Part shown: in pieces, positions 3,111 through 28,453 of the stretch
Position numbering within the stretch: position 1 is the stretch's first letter
Layout: every line of letters begins with the position of its first letter
Assembly (NCBI GenBank): GCA_035945995.1
Contig: DASYZR010000088.1
Span: 1 to 56,621 of the forward strand
Reading direction: 5' to 3'
Source: a bacterium
Lineage (GTDB): Bacteria; Sysuimicrobiota; Sysuimicrobiia; Sysuimicrobiales; Segetimicrobiaceae
Length of the DNA stretch: 56,621 nt
Position numbers and translations under genes: made by a program
Notes under the pieces: model-generated
What the model saw: the letters and a program-made list of their open reading frames with translations, nothing else
Database searches by the model: none
Told to the model about the DNA's origin: nothing

Positions 3111-3257
3111 ACAGCGCGGCGCGGCCGAGACACAGTATAGCCCAGACGTTCTCGGCGGCACAAGGTTGGGCTGCGCGCCGGCCGCGATCGGCGACATCCG
3201 GCGGCGACGAGACCTCTCTCACGGGGTAAATACCGATCACCAGGGAGGTGGGGACGT

Positions 3258-3530
3258 ATGCTCCGCGACAGGGAACTCGAGCAGTACCGTCGTGTAGTGG
3301 AAGAGGCGGTGGCGGGTACGGGCCGGGACGACATCGGTGTGGGGGCGGTGACGGAGGCCGAGGGCGGGAAGATCGCCGTCGAGTTCTCGCGCGGGACCCA
3401 CACGTATCAGGCGGAGATTCCCGCCGCCGCGCTGCAGGACCACGGCGAGGCGCGCCGGACGATCAACACCGCGATTCTGAAATTGAGCAAGGAAGTCGCG
3501 CAGGAACAGTTGGAGAAGTCCGCGTCATAA
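3258..3530 (+). CDS. Hypothetical protein, 90 aa
   Basis: A small soluble protein of unknown function. It starts with a charged helix (LRDRELEQYRRVVEEAV), continues through a short beta-rich part (KIAVEFSRGTHTYQAEIP) and ends with another helix (INTAILKLSKEVAQEQ). There are no cysteines, signal peptide or membrane segments. GGGAGGTGG stands 8 bases before the ATG, an excellent ribosome site, so it is very likely translated. It stands alone: tRNA-Phe lies upstream on the other strand, and a strong hairpin separates it from the convergent stalk-protein gene. Confidence 0.75.
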   Translation: MLRDRELEQYRRVVEEAVAGTGRDDIGVGAVTEAEGGKIAVEFSRGTHTYQAEIPAAALQDHGEARRTINTAILKLSKEVAQEQLEKSAS

Positions 3531-3557
3531 CGCCTGCGATCGCCGTCGCCAGGAGCG

Positions 3558-3588
3558 CGGGGCGGGTCCTCTGTGAGGACCCGCCCCG
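3558..3588. terminator. Bidirectional hairpin terminator between convergent genes
   Basis: A perfect 14-bp stem (CGGGGCGGGTCCTC / GAGGACCCGCCCCG) with loop TGT lies 27 bases after the 90-aa gene and 33 bases after the end of the convergent stalk-protein gene. No T tract follows, as is common in GC-rich genomes. Confidence 0.7.
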
Positions 3589-3621
3589 CCCGCGTACTAC
3601 CGCATCCTTCCCCCGCCGCGG

Positions 3622-4857
3622 CTACTGGACCGACACCTCGATGCTGGCTGCGTCGGACTGTGCGCCGTTCACAATCTGCACCGCGCTGATGACGTACGGA
3701 AACGCGACCAGCGGAAACGACTGGAGGTTCAGCGACACCCGCCAGTTGCCGTCCGCGCCGGCCGTCGTCGTCGAACGAGCCGACTGGCCGGCCAGCCGCG
3801 GCTGGGCGGTCACGACGACGAGCGCCCCCGGCTGCGCCCGGCCCTGCACCGTGATGGTGCTGCCGACCGTCGCGCCGTTCCCCGGCGACGTGATCGTGGG
3901 CACCTTCATCGCGACCGGCACGGGCGCCGTGCTCGTGGGGATTGAGACGGCGACCTGGTACGCTTGATTCGTTCCCTGGACGACGTAGAATCGCGCCGCG
4001 CGGCCGTTCTGCAGCGCGCTGAAGTCCGACGCCTGCCCGTTCAGGGTGATCTGCGCATCCGGCAGGACGACATACGTTGTGCCGTTGGCGAGCGTCACCG
4101 TCCGGTCGCCGGCGCTCACGTGCGCGATGCGGCCCGCGGGGGACAACCGGTACGACGCCGTGATCTTCGTCGCCTGATTGCCGCCGCTGGTGTCAACGAC
4201 CACGTGGTCGCCCGCCTTCAAAGTCCCGAGCGCCGCGGAGCCGCCGGCGTTCGTGTCGGCGTTGTAGCGATAGATCGCCGTCTGCGGCGTCACCGCAAAC
4301 GTGTAGTCCTGCCCGTTGGAGCGCACGACGATCTGGGGAGTCTGCCCGGTGGACACGGCCATGAGACGGCCCGCGACCTGGCTGCTTGTCGCGACGGGCG
4401 GCGGCGCCGCGGCCGGCGCGCTGCCGCTGCTGCTGATCAGGATCGTCTGATTCGCCTCGATCCATTGGACGCCGGCGCCAAGCGCCTCGCTGATGAAGCG
4501 CAACGGCACCATCGTGCGGCCGTTGATGGTGAAGGCCGGCACGTCGAGCAGTTTTGGCGCAGTGTTGACGCGGGCCTGACGGGACCCGACGGTCAACTCG
4601 ACGGTCTGTCCGCCGCGGACGGCGAGGATGTGCTGCGTCCGGGCGTCGTAGTCAACGGTAGCTCCGAGCTGCTCGAAGATGCCGCGCAAGGGCACCAGCA
4701 CGCGGCCCTGGATGGCGGTCGGCGGCACGTCGAAGTTGACGGGACGGCCGTCGATGAACACCCGGATCAGCCCCTGCGCGCCCGCCGGCACGGGCGCAGC
4801 CATCGCGACGGCAACAGCCAGGAGGAGAGTGGCCCACAGCACGCGTTTCGTAGACAT
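3622..4857 (-). CDS. Secreted copper amine oxidase N-terminal (stalk) domain protein with Ig-like C-terminus
   Basis: A 411-residue exported protein. Residues 1-28 are a Sec signal peptide (KRVLWATLLLAVAVAM...AGAQ). Residues ~30-145 hold two stalk-type repeats with the hallmark phrases GRVLVPLRGIFEQLGA and GRTMVPLRFISEALGA, as in Cu_amine_oxidN1 domains. A Pro/Ala linker near 150 is followed by a beta-rich region (~165-310) with NGxxYxx-type strands. Residues ~320-411 resemble a bacterial Ig-like module (VPTITSPGNGATV, then GADGNWRVSLNL). Such proteins are usually surface or cell-wall associated; despite the domain name, no amine oxidase activity is implied. The start is set by the signal peptide. 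The leader carries a hairpin that could hide the ribosome site. Confidence 0.85.
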   Translation of the reverse strand: MSTKRVLWATLLLAVAVAMAAPVPAGAQGLIRVFIDGRPVNFDVPPTAIQGRVLVPLRGIFEQLGATVDYDARTQHILAVRGGQTVELTVGSRQARVNTAPKLLDVPAFTINGRTMVPLRFISEALGAGVQWIEANQTILISSSGSAPAAAPPPVATSSQVAGRLMAVSTGQTPQIVVRSNGQDYTFAVTPQTAIYRYNADTNAGGSAALGTLKAGDHVVVDTSGGNQATKITASYRLSPAGRIAHVSAGDRTVTLANGTTYVVLPDAQITLNGQASDFSALQNGRAARFYVVQGTNQAYQVAVSIPTSTAPVPVAMKVPTITSPGNGATVGSTITVQGRAQPGALVVVTAQPRLAGQSARSTTTAGADGNWRVSLNLQSFPLVAFPYVISAVQIVNGAQSDAASIEVSVQ

Positions 4858-20638: not shown

Positions 20639-21511
20639 TTAGACCTGCGCGCTGAAGATGATGACGGCCCGCAGCGCGAGCACGCCGACGAGCGCCAGGA
20701 CGGCGGCGAGCACCGCGGCGGCGGGGGGCCGGGCCGGCTCCCTGCGGGCCAGCGCCATCAACGGCGGCACGAGCCCGATCGCGACGATAAGCCACAGGAA
20801 CAGCCACGGCCCGCGCACGAGCAGCGGCAGCGTGCCGGCCGCCGCGAGCGTGGCGAAGAGGAGGAGAATCCACACCACCTCGATCAGCGCAAAGTATCCG
20901 TCCGCCAGCCGCAGGCGCGCGCCGGTGCCGCCGTCGCGCCGCGCGACGGCCGCGAGCAGCGCCGCGGCGCCGCTCAGGCCGGACGCGAGGAACAGGCCGC
21001 CGAGGGTCCAGGTATCGCTCCACAGCGGTTGATTGGACACGCTCAACAGCACGCCGGTGTACGATGCGACGAACAGCGCCGGCAGCGCCCCGAGCAGATT
21101 GAACAGGCGGGTCCCCATCCCCACGGGCGCGGACCCCGCGGCGCCGCGCCGTGCCAGCGCCTCGAGAAACGACACCGCCGCGAACATCCCGTAGACGAAG
21201 AGCGCCCAACTGCCGACGGACATCGGGCTCCAGTCACGGAAGATGGGGCCACCCTGTCCCGGCGTCGTGGCGACCAGCATGTGCCAGAACCGCAGCGGCT
21301 GTCCGAGATCGAGCGTGAGGAGCACCGGACACGCGAGCAGGATCGGAAAGGCCCAGAGAAAGGCGATCCGCGCGGTCGCTTCGTCGCCCCGGCCCCCCCA
21401 CAGCCGGAGCATCGTCCCGATCGCATACAGGCCGCCGCTCACCCCGGCGAGGAAGAAATACGAGAGGATGTACCACGTCCACTCCGGAGGGCGGACGAAG
21501 TGCTCAACCAT
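20639..21511 (-). CDS. NrfD/PsrC-type membrane anchor of formate dehydrogenase
   Basis: A 290-residue membrane protein with eight to nine hydrophobic helices of the NrfD/PsrC family. The start, FVRPPEWTWYILSYFFLAGVSGGLY, is typical: such proteins hold a quinone-reacting site and no heme. Here it should pass formate electrons from the ferredoxin-like subunit to the quinone pool. It replaces the cytochrome b (FdnI) subunit of enteric formate dehydrogenases. The ATG overlaps the stop of the iron-sulfur subunit by one base (TGATG), showing tight coupling. Confidence 0.88.
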   Translation of the reverse strand: MVEHFVRPPEWTWYILSYFFLAGVSGGLYAIGTMLRLWGGRGDEATARIAFLWAFPILLACPVLLTLDLGQPLRFWHMLVATTPGQGGPIFRDWSPMSVGSWALFVYGMFAAVSFLEALARRGAAGSAPVGMGTRLFNLLGALPALFVASYTGVLLSVSNQPLWSDTWTLGGLFLASGLSGAAALLAAVARRDGGTGARLRLADGYFALIEVVWILLLFATLAAAGTLPLLVRGPWLFLWLIVAIGLVPPLMALARREPARPPAAAVLAAVLALVGVLALRAVIIFSAQV

Positions 21512-22335
21512 CACCCGTTCCCCCCCTGTGCGCCTCCTTGGGCGCGGCCCAATTCCGTCATGCGCCGGTCGCGGAACGCCACGACCGCGGCGACGGCGCC
21601 GAGGAGCGCCGTCGCGAGCATGCCGAGATAGCCGCCCTGGTTGTTCCGGCGCGGCAGCACGGCGTTCTGGGCGTTCGGCAGGCCGTACGTTTCCGGCCTG
21701 TCCATCAGGAGAAAGAAGGCGTTGAGGCCGCCGTAGACCTGATCGTCGCGTCCGTAGAGCTGCGCCTGCGCGTAGCCCTGGTCGTGCAGCGCCGCCAGAC
21801 GCGCGTCGGCGCGCTTCTGCATCTCGGCGAGCGGGCCGAACTGGATCGATTGCGTCGGACACGCCTGGGCGCACGCCGGGGTCATGCCGTTCTGCAGGCG
21901 GTCGTAGCAAAACGTACACTTGTGCACGGTACCGGTCTCGGCGCTGAACCCGATGACGCCGAACGGGCAGGCGGAGATGCAGTAGCGGCATCCGTTGCAC
22001 ACATCCTGCTGGATGAACACCGTGTCGAACTCGGTGCGGACGATCGCGCCGGTCGGGCAGACTTCCATGCAGCTCGCGTGCTTGCAGTGCTTGCAGACGT
22101 CGGACAGCATCAGCCAGGCGTGCCCGTTGCCGCTTTGGACCGGCTCGTCGCCCATCCGCTCGATGAACTGGACGTGGCGCCAGTTCTGGTCGTTGAGCGC
22201 CCCGGTGTTGTCGTAACTGTCCATGAACGCCGGTTTGTCGCCGGGGAGCCGGTTCCACTCCTTGCAGGCGACCTCACAGGCCTTGCAGCCGATGCAGACG
22301 CTCGAGTCGGTGAAGAAGCCGACGGCCTCAGGCAT
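21511..22335 (-). CDS. fdhB: Formate dehydrogenase iron-sulfur (beta) subunit
   Basis: A 274-residue ferredoxin-like electron-transfer subunit with four [4Fe-4S] clusters. Cluster motifs: CIGCKACEVAC (Cys14, 17, 20, 24), CKHCKHASCMEVCP, CNGCRYCISACPFG and CTFCYDR...CAQACP. A C-terminal hydrophobic helix (LGMLATALLGAVAAVVAF) should anchor it to the membrane as in FdnH, followed by a short Gly/Gln-rich tail. It has no signal peptide and would be exported with the catalytic subunit by the Tat system. The start lies three bases after the fdhE stop. Confidence 0.92.
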   Translation of the reverse strand: MPEAVGFFTDSSVCIGCKACEVACKEWNRLPGDKPAFMDSYDNTGALNDQNWRHVQFIERMGDEPVQSGNGHAWLMLSDVCKHCKHASCMEVCPTGAIVRTEFDTVFIQQDVCNGCRYCISACPFGVIGFSAETGTVHKCTFCYDRLQNGMTPACAQACPTQSIQFGPLAEMQKRADARLAALHDQGYAQAQLYGRDDQVYGGLNAFFLLMDRPETYGLPNAQNAVLPRRNNQGGYLGMLATALLGAVAAVVAFRDRRMTELGRAQGGAQGGNG

Positions 22336-22338
22336 GGC

Positions 22339-23304
22339 TCACGCCCCCATCAGATTCGGCACGATTTTGGTGAAGCCGCGATCGACGGCATGGAGATCGA
22401 GCGGAATCGCGGCCAGCTCGTCGACCACCGGGACGGCGCGGGGATCGCGCCCCAGGTCGATTGAGAGCAGGTACCGCGAACACGCGGTGCACGCATCGAT
22501 GCGCACGTGCGGGAAGCGGGGCGACGTCCCGCGTAAGCGGGACCGCGGCGTCTCCGCGGGCGGCGCCTCGATCCGTCCGCGGAGCCCGCGGACGGTGCTG
22601 CCGGACAGGCTGCGCTCCTCGACGCCCACTTCGGCGAGGACGGTCAGTTTCGACGGGTCCTGCTCCCCGCACGAGGCGCACATGAGTCGCGGGTACGCCC
22701 AACCGGCCGCGCACCGCGAGCAGACCAGCACACGAGGACCGGCCACGAGCGCCTCCGCCGGCACCGCGACGTAACTGAGCTGGGGAAGGCCGCCGCAGGT
22801 TGGGCAGCGCCGGTCGCCGGACGGCTCCTCGGCGACCCCTGCCCGCTCCCTGCCGGCGTGGCGGCCGCCGCAGGCATCTCCGGCCCGCGCTCCGAGGGCT
22901 TCGAGCACCGGCCCGGCGGACGCGCGGGCGAGATACCGCTCGACGGCGCTGTGGTCCTCCCCATCGAGCCACCGGCGGATCATCTCGCCGCGGGCCGGCG
23001 CGGGCATCCCGGCGAACTGTCCGCGGACAAGATTCGCGAGCGTCCCCGGTCCGGCCGCGGCCGTGACCTCGAGGACGCGGGGCAGCACGCGCTCCGCCGC
23101 ATAAGCGGCCGCGTCGGCGCCGTCGGGTGCGTCCCGCCTGGCGGCGGACCAGGCCGGTTCCTGCACGTCGAGAAGCGCCCGATAAAGGGCGAGCGGTTCA
23201 CGCGCAAACGGATATCGCTCCCGCAGGGCCTCGGCGCGCTCGCGCCGGGCGCCCCACGGTGCGGCCAGAACGGCGGACTGAGTCTGCTCGCGCTGTTCGG
23301 TCAT
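22339..23304 (-). CDS. fdhE: Formate dehydrogenase accessory protein FdhE
   Basis: A 321-residue cytosolic maturation factor for formate dehydrogenase. Four C-x2-C pairs in the C-terminal half fit FdhE rubredoxin-like metal binding: CPTCGG, CSRCAAGW, CASCGE and CTACSRY. The start overlaps the end of the catalytic gene (ATGA), so synthesis is linked to that of its client. FdhE is known to be needed for activity of Tat-exported selenoprotein formate dehydrogenases. Confidence 0.88.
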   Translation of the reverse strand: MTEQREQTQSAVLAAPWGARRERAEALRERYPFAREPLALYRALLDVQEPAWSAARRDAPDGADAAAYAAERVLPRVLEVTAAAGPGTLANLVRGQFAGMPAPARGEMIRRWLDGEDHSAVERYLARASAGPVLEALGARAGDACGGRHAGRERAGVAEEPSGDRRCPTCGGLPQLSYVAVPAEALVAGPRVLVCSRCAAGWAYPRLMCASCGEQDPSKLTVLAEVGVEERSLSGSTVRGLRGRIEAPPAETPRSRLRGTSPRFPHVRIDACTACSRYLLSIDLGRDPRAVPVVDELAAIPLDLHAVDRGFTKIVPNLMGA

Positions 23305-26300
23305 CCGAGGCGCTCCAGGTTAACCAGGAACGCCTTGTACTCCGGCGTTCGCGCCGTGGCGTCGCCGACAAACGGCGTCAGCACGTTGGCCAGCCAGTGC
23401 TGGGACTTCTCCGGATGGAGCTCCGCGGAAATCCCCACGAAGCTCCAGTGAATCGGAATGCCGATCTGCCACACCCGTTTGCCGGCCACGTCGAGGGGTC
23501 CCAAGCGCTTCGTGACCAAGGCGCGGGCTTCGACCTTGCCGCGCTTCGACGAGACGCGGACCATGTCGCCGTTCCTGATGTCCTTTTCCTTTGCCAGACC
23601 GTCCGGGATCTCGACGAACGCTTCCGGCTGCAACTGGACGAGGTGCTCCACGTGCTGGGTGACGTAATGCTCGTGCTCGGTCAGCCGATACGTCGTTCCG
23701 ATGTACGGGAACTCCTCCGGGGTCCCGAAGCGGCTGGGCCGCCCCGCGGCCTTATCGTACAGGAACGCCGCCGGGTTTTCGGATTGGTCGGGGTGCAGCG
23801 GGTTCTTGACCGGCGACTCTATTGGCTCGTAGTGCTCGGGAAACGGCCCGTCGAGGGGCGTGTTGCTGAACAGCCGTCCGGTGCCCTCGCCGGTCATGAT
23901 GAACGGCAGCCACGCCTTCGGATCCTTCGGATTCATCGCCGGCGGGTAGTCCGGGACGTCGCCGACCCATTTCTGACCGCTCCATTGAATGCCCGGACGC
24001 GCCGGGTCCCAGGGCTGGCCCTCGAGGTCGGCCGACGCCCGATTGTAGAGCACCCGCCGGTTGACCGGCCAGCTCCAAGCCCAGTTGGGGTAGAATCCCA
24101 TGCCGGTCGGGTCGTTCTTCGCGGGGTCGTGAATGCCCGCGCGCCGCTTCATGAGGTTGCCGCTCTCGGGGTAACTGCCGGTGTAGATCCAGTCGCCGGC
24201 GGCCGTCGTGCCGTCGTCCTTGAGCGCGGCGAACGTGGCGAGGCGCTTGCCGGTCGCAAGATCCTTCCCGTTGATCTCCTGCGCGATCTCGTCCAGTTCC
24301 GGCTTGACCGGATCCCTGTAGTCCATGGTCAGGCGCATGATGGGATCGGGGAACCTGCCGCCTTCCTTCTGGTAGAGCGTCTTCACGCGGTTGAAGAGGT
24401 CTGCCATGATCCAGTGATCGTGCCGGGCGAGTCCCTGCGGTGGAATGACCTGGTCTTTCCATTGAGCCCAGCGGCCGCTGTTCGTGAACGACCCGTCCTT
24501 CTCGATCCAGTGGGTCGCCGGGACCATGAAGACTTCGGTCTGGATGTGGCTCGATTCCAGTCCGGGCGCGTGCCAGAACTCCGAGCTCGTCGTCGGCAGC
24601 GCGTCCATCACCACCAGCCACTTGAGCTTGGACAGCGCTTCCAGCACCTGGTTGGAGTCGGGCCCGATGCTCGTCGCGGTCATCCCGCTGAGAATGACGC
24701 CCTCCATCTTGCCCCGCAGCGCCTGATCGTAGATGGAGATCCACGACGAGTTCCCCGCGGGCTTCGGGATGTAGTCGAACGCGAACTCGTTGTCCTTGGT
24801 CGCGGCGTCGCCGTACCACCCTTTGAGCAGGCTGATCATGAACTTCTTGTAGTTTGTCCCGAAGTAGTTCCAGGAGTTGGGGTCCGATTTCTTCGGCGCC
24901 TTCTCCTTCACGTAGTCCGCCAGGTTCTTCTCGCCCGGTGAGGGAATCGCGAGGTAGCCCGGCAGGATGTCCCACGAGATCGCGTGGTCGGTGTTGCCCT
25001 GGATGTTCGCGTGGCCGCGCTCCGCGTTCATGCCGCCGCCCGGCCGGCCGATGTTGCCGAGGAGCAGCTGCAGCACCGCGCCGGAGCGGATCAACTGCAC
25101 GCCGGTGGTGTGATGGGTGAGGCCGACCGCGTAGACGATCGTCATCACCTTGTCGGGACGGCCCATCTCCCCGACGACCGCGGCGACCTTCAGGAATTCG
25201 TCCTTCGGAATGCCCGTGATCGACGAGACCATCTCCGGCGTGTAGCGAGCGTAGTGCGTCTTGAGCAATTGAAAGACCGAGCGCGGATGCGCAAGCGTCA
25301 TGTCTCGCTTGGCGAATCCCTGCGCGTCGGTCTCGTACGCCCACGTGGCGGTGTCGTAGGTGCGCTTATCCGGGTCGTAGCCGGAGAAGAGGCCGTCCGT
25401 GAAACCGTAGCCTTCCTTGACGAGCCACGACGCGTTCGTGTAGTGCGCCACGTACTCGGCGTGGTGGAGGTTGTGCTGCAGCGCGTAGTTGATCAGCCCG
25501 CCGAAGTACGCGACGTCGGTGCCGGTCCGGATGCGGAGGTAGGTGTCCGCCACCGCCGAGGTCCGGGTGAACCTCGGATCGGCGTGGATGATCTTGGCTC
25601 CGCCGCCCTTGCCCGGACCGCGCTTCGGATCGAGCTTGGCGCGCATGAACCACTGGAAGCCCACGGGGTGGGCCTCCGCGGGGTTCGCGCCGTTGATCAG
25701 AATCAGGTCGGCGTTCTTGATGTCCCTCCAATGGTTTGTCATTGCTCCTCTTCCGAACGTGGCGGCCAGACTGACCACCGTAGGCCCGTGTCAGACACGG
25801 GCCTGCTGTTCCAAGTACACCGCCCCGAGCCCGCGCATCAGCTTGGTCGCGAAGTACCCCTCCTCGCTGCTGAACGCGGCCCCGCCGGCGAAGGCGATCC
25901 CATCGCAGCGGTTGACGGTGTTGCCCTTCGCGTCCTGTGTGACGAACGTCCGGTCGCGGGAATCCTTCATGAGCCGCGCGATCCGGTCGAGCATGAAGTC
26001 CCACCCGACCGGCTCCCAAGCCTTCGCGCCCGGCGGGCGGTGCAGCGGTTGCTCGACCCGCCGGCTGGAGGTCGCCAGCGACATCGCGGTGGCGCCCTTC
26101 GGGCAGAGCCGGCCTTCGGTGATCGGGCTGTCGGGGTCGCCCTCGATTTGGAGGATCTCGACGCTGCCGTCGGCATGCTTGCGGGTAAAGGCGATGAGCG
26201 AGCAGCCGACCGCGCAGTAGGGACAGACCGAATGCGACTCCGTCGCCCCGGCGATGTGGAGCTGTTGTTGGACCTGCGTGGCCTCGGCGAGATCAAATCC

Positions 26301-26375
26301 CAGCGCCGAGACCGCCGCCGTGCCCGCGCCGGCGGCCGTCAACTTGAAGAACCCACGACGGGTGACCGTGCTCAT
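23301..26375 (-). CDS. fdhA: Selenocysteine-containing formate dehydrogenase catalytic subunit
   Basis: A 1024-residue molybdenum bis-MGD enzyme oxidising formate to CO2 outside the membrane. The Tat signal is TRRGFFKLT. A [4Fe-4S] cluster is bound by Cys51, 54, 58 and 91 (CPYCAVGC...CPKG). The TGA at 25791-25793 (codon 195) is read as selenocysteine, not stop: the frame continues as HGPTVVSLAATFGRGAMTNH, exactly as after the Sec of E. coli FdnG (ARV-U-HGPT), and a SECIS-like hairpin follows. The C-terminal Mo-cofactor domain is complete. Automated gene callers would split it into 194- and ~825-residue pieces. It leads the operon fdhA-fdhE-fdhB-nrfD. AGGGGG precedes the ATG. The selenocysteine machinery (SelB, tRNA-Sec) is not in this window. 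Confidence 0.95.
25761..25779 (-). promoter_or_regulatory. Bacterial SECIS hairpin of the formate dehydrogenase
   Basis: Eleven bases after the UGA the minus strand reads GGTGGTC-AGTCT-GGCCGCC, a 7-bp stem (two G-U pairs) with a five-base loop AGUCU. The E. coli fdhF element has the same spacing and an apical loop containing GGUCU, which SelB binds. Stem and loop sit inside coding sequence. Confidence 0.8.
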
Positions 26376-26543: not shown

Positions 26544-26577
26544 ATTGCGGCATATCCTCCTTCGAATTGCGGCGTAT
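26544..26577. promoter_or_regulatory. Paired direct repeat upstream of formate dehydrogenase, candidate regulator site
   Basis: ATTGCGGCATAT (26544-26555) and ATTGCGGCGTAT (26566-26577) differ at one base and start 22 bases apart, two helical turns, so both face the same side of the DNA. The arrangement fits an activator or repressor dimer acting on fdhA and/or moeA-mobB. The regulator is not known. Confidence 0.45.
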
Positions 26578-26599
26578 CCCCCCGCCGAGATACCGTCCC

Positions 26600-26639
26600 C
26601 CCGCGCGAGGCGCGGGGCAGGCCCGCGCGAGGCGCGGGG
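26600..26639. repeat. Two tandem copies of an 18-base self-complementary GC repeat
   Basis: CCCGCGCGAGGCGCGGGG occurs at 26600-26617 and 26622-26639, 22 bases apart. Each can fold into a 7-bp hairpin (CCCGCGC/GCGCGGG, loop GAG). Placed 39-78 bases before the moeA-mobB start, they would lie in its leader or block read-through. Confidence 0.6.
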
Positions 26640-26677
26640 AGGAGGCGCCGGCCGTACCACAGTGGAAAAGACCGGCC

Positions 26678-28453
26678 GTGGCGGCTCACGGCGCGCCGGG
26701 CGCCGACCTGCAAGAAGTCCTCGAACGCCTCCTGGCGGTGGCCCGGCCGCTTCCGGCCGAGACTGTGTCGGTCTGGGAGGCGGCGGGCCGGATCGTTGCG
26801 ACTCGCCTGCGCGCGCCCGTTGCCGTGCCCCGTATCTCCCGCGCCGCGATGGACGGCGTCGTGTGCCACGATGGCGACGTCCGCGGGGCCGCCGAGGGCC
26901 GGCCCGTGACGTTGAAAATCACCGGGACATCGGTCATGGGCGAGCCCCCGGGCCCCGGGCCCGCGCGGGGCGAAGCATGGACCATTACTACCGGCGCGCC
27001 CATCCCGCGTCGCGGGGACCGCGTGCTCCCGCTCGAGGCCGTCCGCACCGACGGTGCCGCGATCTACGTCGAACGGAGCGTGCCGCGCAAGCGCCATGTC
27101 GCCGGCCCCGGCGAGGACATTCAACCCGGCGACGTGCTGGCCTCGCCGGGTGAGCCGATCCCGCCCGCGGCCGCCGGGGCCATGGCGGCATCCGGGGTCG
27201 GCGCGGTCTCCGTGCATCGCCGGCCGCACGTCGCGCTCGTCGCGACCGGCAACGAACTGGTGGAGCTCACCGCCGGGGATCCTCCGCCGCCGCCCGGCTG
27301 CATTGTCAACAGCAATGCGGTCATGCTCGCCGGCGAACTCGCCGCCGCGGGCTGCGCCGTGGACTACCGGGGCATTCTGCCCGACCGGCCGCGCGAGCTG
27401 GCGCGCGCCTTCGCCGCGATGCGGAACCGTTACGACGTCGTGCTGTCCACCGGCGGCGTGTCGGTGGGCCGGCACGATCTCGTGCATCGGACCTGGCTCG
27501 ACCTGGGCGCCCGGCGGTACGCCGGCCGCGTCGAGTTGAAGCCGGGCGGTCCGTTCTTCGCCGCGCGGGCGGGACGCACGTGGGCGATCGGCCTCTCGGG
27601 CACGCCGGTCGCGTGCCTGGCCGCGTTCCACCTGCTCGTCCGGCCGGTGCTGCGGCGGCTGGCCGGCGCGCGCTTCGCCGTCCGGCCGGTTGAGCTGCTG
27701 GCCCTCGACGGCGGATGGCCGCTGGCGACCGACCGGTTCCGCGCGGTATGGGGACGCCTCGACGCGGAGCGCGGCGGGCGGACGGTCCACGCGTTGACGA
27801 ATTCCTCCCTCGGCCGTCTCACGCTGCTGACCGCGGCCGACGCGCTCGTGCTGTTGCCCGCGGGAACGCCGCCGCTTGCCCCCGGATCGCCCGTCGCAGT
27901 TCTCCGCCTGGACCGCCCGGAGGACCGCGAATCCCTGCGCCTTCCCGCCTCGACGCCGGGCCCGCTCGTCATCGGCGTGCTGGGCGCGTCCGGCAGCGGC
28001 AAGACGGCGGTCGTCGCCGGGCTCATTACACGTTTCACGGCACGCGGCCTTCGGGTGAACGCGGTGAAGCACGCCGCGCACGGCTTCCAGATCGACCGCC
28101 CGCAGAGCGACAGCGCGCGCATGCTGGACGCGGGCGCGGCGCGCGTCGTGCTGGCCGGCCCATCCGAAACCACGGTGCGGATCGCGGGCGAGATGGCGTT
28201 GTCATCGTTGCTCCGAGGCCCGGCCCGTGGCGGCGGACCCGCCGCGCCGGACCTCGTCCTTGTTGAAGGCTTCGGGGCGGCGGGCCATCCCGTGATCCAG
28301 GTGGGATCGCCCAAGCCGGACGCGGATTCCGGCGAGCCGTGGATGACGATTCCCGCCGTCACCGCGTTGTCCGATGCCGCACTCGAAACGACGCTTGATC
28401 GCATCGCCGCCAGGATCGTGACGCTGCTCCCTCGGGTGCCCGCGCGCGGCTGA
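26678..28453 (+). CDS. MoeA-MobB fusion: molybdopterin molybdenumtransferase plus GTP-binding adaptor
   Basis: A 591-residue fusion. Residues ~1-425 are MoeA, which inserts molybdate into adenylylated molybdopterin: AAMDGVVCHDGD, TITTGAPIPRRGDRV, ALVATGNEL, the STGGVSVGRHD loop and the C-terminal beta barrel. Residues ~430-591 are MobB: Walker A GASGSGKT at 436-443, VNAVKHAAHGF (K-H motif) and LVLVEGFG. MobB helps make the guanine dinucleotide form used by formate dehydrogenase. It is divergent from the fdh operon, so it probably serves it. GTG 26678 is chosen because the MoeA fold begins there; the open frame further up is Arg/Pro-rich and unlikely coding. No clear ribosome site. Confidence 0.88.
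   Translation: MAAHGAPGADLQEVLERLLAVARPLPAETVSVWEAAGRIVATRLRAPVAVPRISRAAMDGVVCHDGDVRGAAEGRPVTLKITGTSVMGEPPGPGPARGEAWTITTGAPIPRRGDRVLPLEAVRTDGAAIYVERSVPRKRHVAGPGEDIQPGDVLASPGEPIPPAAAGAMAASGVGAVSVHRRPHVALVATGNELVELTAGDPPPPPGCIVNSNAVMLAGELAAAGCAVDYRGILPDRPRELARAFAAMRNRYDVVLSTGGVSVGRHDLVHRTWLDLGARRYAGRVELKPGGPFFAARAGRTWAIGLSGTPVACLAAFHLLVRPVLRRLAGARFAVRPVELLALDGGWPLATDRFRAVWGRLDAERGGRTVHALTNSSLGRLTLLTAADALVLLPAGTPPLAPGSPVAVLRLDRPEDRESLRLPASTPGPLVIGVLGASGSGKTAVVAGLITRFTARGLRVNAVKHAAHGFQIDRPQSDSARMLDAGAARVVLAGPSETTVRIAGEMALSSLLRGPARGGGPAAPDLVLVEGFGAAGHPVIQVGSPKPDADSGEPWMTIPAVTALSDAALETTLDRIAARIVTLLPRVPARG

Follow-up and report, generated by a model that had tools for sequence, protein, structure and literature searches.

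Why does a formate dehydrogenase gene in an uncultured soil bacterium of the Sysuimicrobiota carry a UGA codon in the middle of its reading frame, and how is that codon read? The gene lies in a stretch of 56,621 nt (hereafter the window, contig C88 of genome G000), and a sequence-only reading had proposed that it encodes a selenocysteine (Sec) formate dehydrogenase with its own SECIS hairpin. Sec formate dehydrogenases with a SECIS element are a textbook system and a well-known kind of gene; FdhA is the most widespread bacterial selenoprotein, with SelD second (PMC13188914). The family of the protein, the site, the hairpin, its conservation and the machinery genes elsewhere in the genome all support this proposal, and from the sequence we consider it almost certain that UGA codon 195 is decoded as Sec, with the help of the hairpin, in the catalytic subunit of an FdnG-type formate dehydrogenase.

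Reading Frame and Family of the Interrupted Gene

On the minus strand, positions 26375..23301 form a single frame of 1024 codons that runs from an ATG at 26375 to a terminator at 23301, with stops at codons 195 (25791..25793) and 1025 only, both of them TGA. The coordinates first proposed for this otherwise continuous frame were exact, although the strand had been left unstated. As had been predicted for a standard gene caller, a plain standard-code ORF list splits the gene into two broken pieces, one at 25791-26375 (194 aa) and one at 23301-25778 (825 aa). Such a split is also what would be seen if the UGA were a genuine stop or had arisen from a sequencing error, leaving either a pseudogene or two working genes with a hairpin between them by chance.

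The whole frame, however, behaves as one protein. The profile TIGR01553 (formate dehydrogenase-N alpha) scored 1308 bits, where the cut-off is 814, with residues 4-1021 aligned on 2-1008, and among solved structures E. coli FdnG matches best (PDB 1kqf_A; E=0, 1026 bits, 4-1022 on 3-1014). Domains PF04879, PF00384 and PF01568 (N-terminal Fe4S4, molybdopterin and dinucleotide-binding) are present, as is a Tat-type signal, RRGFFK. These matches place the protein among the alpha subunits of FdnG-type formate dehydrogenases. The X (Sec) residue of 1kqf aligns with codon 195 in the context ARV-U-HGPT (V-U-H-G, i.e., Sec followed by His), which bears out the claim that the TGA sits exactly where FdnG-type enzymes have Sec.

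We compared this position in 93 contexts drawn from the window, E. coli fdnG, phylum-mates, Chloroflexi, Eremiobacterota, Actinobacteria, Acidobacteria and a few others (two collections overlap, and a few loci are counted twice); the codon is TGA in 93/93. A Cys codon at the site, which had been named as a result that would speak against Sec, was found in none of these relatives. Substitutions are concentrated in third codon positions before as well as after codon 195, which indicates that the sequence beyond the UGA is selected as protein. In view of the constancy of the TGA, together with constraint on both sides of it, we rejected a sequencing error or a pseudogene. A global reassignment of UGA was also considered and ruled out: 8/10 window genes with listed stops terminate in TGA, which shows that UGA is the usual terminator nearby, that of fdnG included.

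The Sec codon is also the centre of a perfect 10-bp inverted repeat (25782-25804, minus strand; AGGCCCGTGT-CTG-ACACGGGCCT). The repeat is due largely to the codons for A-R-V-U-H-G-P and is not conserved in most relatives.

The SECIS Hairpin

Eleven nucleotides after the TGA (CACGGGCCTAC), at 25779..25761 on the minus strand, the transcript can form the hairpin GGUGGUC-AGUCU-GGCCGCC, with seven pairs and a 5-nt loop, just as the sequence-only reading had described it. A check against a bacterial SECIS model had been suggested; we compared the hairpin with the published constraints for bacterial SECIS (bSECIS) elements, and it fits all of them: an apical loop of 3-9 nt (here 5 nt) on an upper stem of 4-16 bp (here 7 bp), a G within the first two loop positions followed by G or U (here AGUCU), 16-37 nt from UGA to loop (here 18 nt) and a minimum free energy of at most -7.5 kcal/mol (here -12.2 kcal/mol) (PMC13188914).

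By fold energy, nevertheless, the element does not stand out from dinucleotide shuffles of the same composition (z about -0.1 to -0.3), as would be expected if the hairpin had arisen by chance behind a true stop; energy alone is therefore no proof of the hairpin, and we dropped it as an argument. The combination of stem and loop is less ordinary. When the 13 post-UGA codons were recoded synonymously 20,000 times with the gene's own codon usage, seven pairs formed at this place in 12.4% of cases and an RGUYU loop in 3.5%, with both together in 0.42%. No further 7-bp hairpin with an RGUYU loop was found anywhere in the 56.6-kb window, both strands included, and an Rfam scan of the window returned two tRNAs and nothing else.

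The element had been likened to that of E. coli fdhF, a comparison that has to be amended. The SECIS loop of E. coli fdhF has 6 nt, whereas E. coli fdnG is closer in both loop and spacing: there, too, 11 nt separate the UGA from a hairpin, GGUAGCA AGUCU UGCUCC, with the same AGUCU loop. The stems differ in that all 7/7 pairs form here, with a U.G at the place of a bulged U in fdnG. Soil Sec formate dehydrogenase loci of Chloroflexi, Eremiobacterota and Actinobacteria (L021-L061; 71-82% identity) likewise carry the UGA and a near-identical SECIS, although their loops are mostly AGUUU, in contrast to the AGUCU of the window and its closest kin.

Conservation and Covariation

Comparison among relatives provides the main support for the hairpin, which we regard as real. 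Among 51 near relatives, the excess of codon identity at conserved residues reaches its maximum in windows of 13 codons that begin at codons 193-195, which rank first of 578 in the gene for synonymous conservation; among distant relatives the maximum lies at codon 196. A peak of synonymous conservation right after the UGA is hard to reconcile with a chance hairpin behind a true stop, as is the third-position bias of substitutions on both sides of the codon.

Pairing is also well kept. In 19 distinct elements from near relatives, 99.2% of stem cells are paired, and the covariation score of these elements beats all slid versions and is reached by 0/500 shuffles. One stem pair changes from G-C to C-G through two synonymous changes (GUG to GUC and GCC to GCG); this compensatory change concerns a single pair, in three distinct elements, and the covariation signal is thus modest, so that we place more weight on the synonymous peak. 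Over the wider set, the loop is RGUYU in 93/93 contexts and the four loop-adjacent pairs are complete in 78/93, with 10 distinct arm pairs. Fourteen Acidobacteria-type elements (CUCA/GGGA) form 2/4 of these pairs in the chosen register; in a shifted register, set by hand, they form six pairs.

Selenocysteine Machinery in the Genome and the Phylum

A search of the rest of the genome for selA, selB, selD and tRNA-Sec had been proposed as a check, with the absence of selB and tRNA-Sec as the outcome that would count against Sec. All four are present in G000 (4.15 Mb, 98.8% complete, 181 contigs). Contig C155 carries selA (551 bits), selB (352 bits, with winged-helix domains) and tRNA-Sec (70.8 bits, anticodon UCA) together, its link to the window's contig depending on binning; fdhD lies on C51. 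The selD gene (L103, C5:47185-48105, minus strand; 386 bits) itself contains an in-frame TGA (MVACAG-U-ASK), followed after 25 nt by a hairpin, UGGCGC-AGGUUCU-GCGCCA. All five genes score above curated cut-offs. A genome so equipped is not what a true stop at codon 195 would lead one to expect, and, taken with the invariant TGA and the constraint behind it, leaves us giving next to no credence to a true stop or an error in the sequence. A transposase-like gene, read by eye, adjoins the tRNA-Sec gene on C155 (L001, about 1-1330).

Two genomes of the same genus (G023 and G024) also carry the formate dehydrogenase, selA, selB, selD and tRNA-Sec. Among 43 genomes of the phylum, selA is found above cut-off in 33, selB in 31 and selD in 35, and nearly all of the selD genes found have an in-frame TGA. 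A formate dehydrogenase of the window's type occurs in 13/43. Both selA and selB are absent from five of these 13: G031 (68% complete), G013 (77%), G020 (93%), and G039 and G040 (94%). The last two carry the formate dehydrogenase and a selD with in-frame TGA (L178 on G039:C34 and L177 on G040:C14). A new route to Sec in genus g20 was considered and set aside, since the G040 contig stops 90 bases beyond the tRNA-Sec gene, which makes an assembly gap likely there; a gap would be the likely explanation in G031, G013, G020 and G039 too.

One further genome, G029, is of the same family as G000. A contig of G029 is 100% identical, over the part that was compared, to L049, a record of “Terrabacteria group bacterium ANGP1,” which NCBI taxonomy now lists as Candidatus Segetimicrobium genomatis in the Segetimicrobiaceae (Sysuimicrobiota), the family of G000. 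G029 also holds a compact island (L179, C34) with a divergent Sec formate dehydrogenase, selA, selB, tRNA-Sec and a TGA-free selD, besides another full Sec set; the island has the look of a Sec kit gained by horizontal transfer.

A Second tRNA With Anticodon UCA

A UGA can also be read without Sec, by a suppressor tRNA that inserts Ser, Trp or Cys, and G000 does hold a tRNA that might be suspected of this. Contig C24 carries, on the plus strand, a second class-II tRNA with anticodon UCA (L101, 4244-4330), which folds as a cloverleaf (z -4.4) with 7/5 arms and G73; about 23 nt from it lies another class-II tRNA with anticodon UGC (about 4355-4441, plus strand). The UCA tRNA recalls allo-tRNAs, yet has normal 7/5 arms, where allo-tRNAs have 8/4 or 9/3 (PMC7609411). 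Its acceptor branch is 12 bp and not the 13 bp of the normal bacterial tRNA-Sec that SelA and SelB use (PMC7609411). The tRNA is also rare: its only relative in the 43 phylum genomes is in same-genus G023 (C10:21084-21164) and has anticodon CCA, while the UGA and SECIS of the formate dehydrogenase are conserved far beyond this range. That codon 195 is read by such a suppressor in place of Sec is accordingly very improbable. It is also very unlikely that the C24 tRNA is expressed and serylated, with UGAs (codon 195 included) decoded in part as Ser, alongside Sec and termination. A phage or viral origin of the tRNA was considered and rejected, because phages and viral contigs yielded no match.

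The same stretch of C24 holds a hydrolase-like frame (about 3240-3890) with an in-frame TAG (FFFSHGW-*-TNAN), which is probably a pseudogene.

Gene Neighborhood and Proposed Route to an Active Enzyme

The genes around fdnG suggest a membrane-associated formate dehydrogenase. On the minus strand the order is fdnG-fdhE-fdnH-nrfD, and the first and last joints are stop/start overlaps. The FdhE-like accessory protein (22339..23304; FdhE_C above cut-off, TIGR01562 at 47 bits, below cut-off) begins in an ATGA shared with the fdnG stop, and fdhE directly follows fdnG in 14 of the 15 near relatives examined, the exception being L051, whose contig breaks off within fdnG. Next come an FdnH/HybA-like Fe-S electron-transfer subunit with a C-terminal hydrophobic segment (21511..22335; TIGR01582 at 172 bits, below cut-off) and an NrfD-like membrane subunit (20639..21511; PF03916, E=9e-21), whose start we place at an ATG overlapping the fdnH stop. 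Upstream of fdnG, on the plus strand, a divergent neighbour encodes a MoeA-MobB fusion for molybdenum cofactor maturation (26567..28453). The four-gene order recurs in those Chloroflexi, Eremiobacterota and Actinobacteria loci that are long enough to check.

The likeness to E. coli fdnGHI includes full-length homology, the position of Sec in ARV-U-HGPT and an Fe-S beta subunit downstream. The membrane subunit of the E. coli fdn enzyme is the cytochrome b FdnI; at our locus no FdnI-type cytochrome b subunit was found, and the NrfD-like protein stands in its place, with the fdhE-like gene inserted between alpha and beta. Desulfovibrio-type FdhA (6sdr, 8cm4) also is a Sec alpha subunit with full-length homology, but it scores 881-887 bits as compared with 1026 for FdnG, and the window locus has the NrfD-like membrane subunit in addition.

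The pathway that these genes suggest would start with SelA and SelD making Sec-tRNA(Sec), which SelB, bound to the hairpin 11 nt downstream, would bring to the ribosome at the UGA. The Sec residue would then coordinate the metal of a molybdenum/tungsten enzyme matured by FdhD, FdhE and MoeA/MobB. The enzyme may be membrane-associated and face the periplasm; its FdnH-like Fe-S subunit would then relay electrons to the quinone pool by way of the NrfD-like membrane subunit. Sec insertion, periplasmic location, metal, catalytic direction and electron route are all parts of this scheme that we infer from sequence comparison.

Implications for the Phylum

Automatic annotation would call this formate dehydrogenase broken, while the gene is most probably that of an intact selenoenzyme. 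The main Sysuimicrobiota paper uses fdhA as evidence for a reductive glycine pathway (PMC11604079); its main text mentions formate dehydrogenase once and has no word beginning with “selen,” and so the Sec trait looks to be unreported there. The presence of selA in 33 and selD in 35 of the 43 genomes, with an in-frame TGA in nearly all of the selD genes, suggests that selenium dependence is probably ancient and widely shared within this uncultured phylum, a dependence that would matter for the choice of cultivation media.
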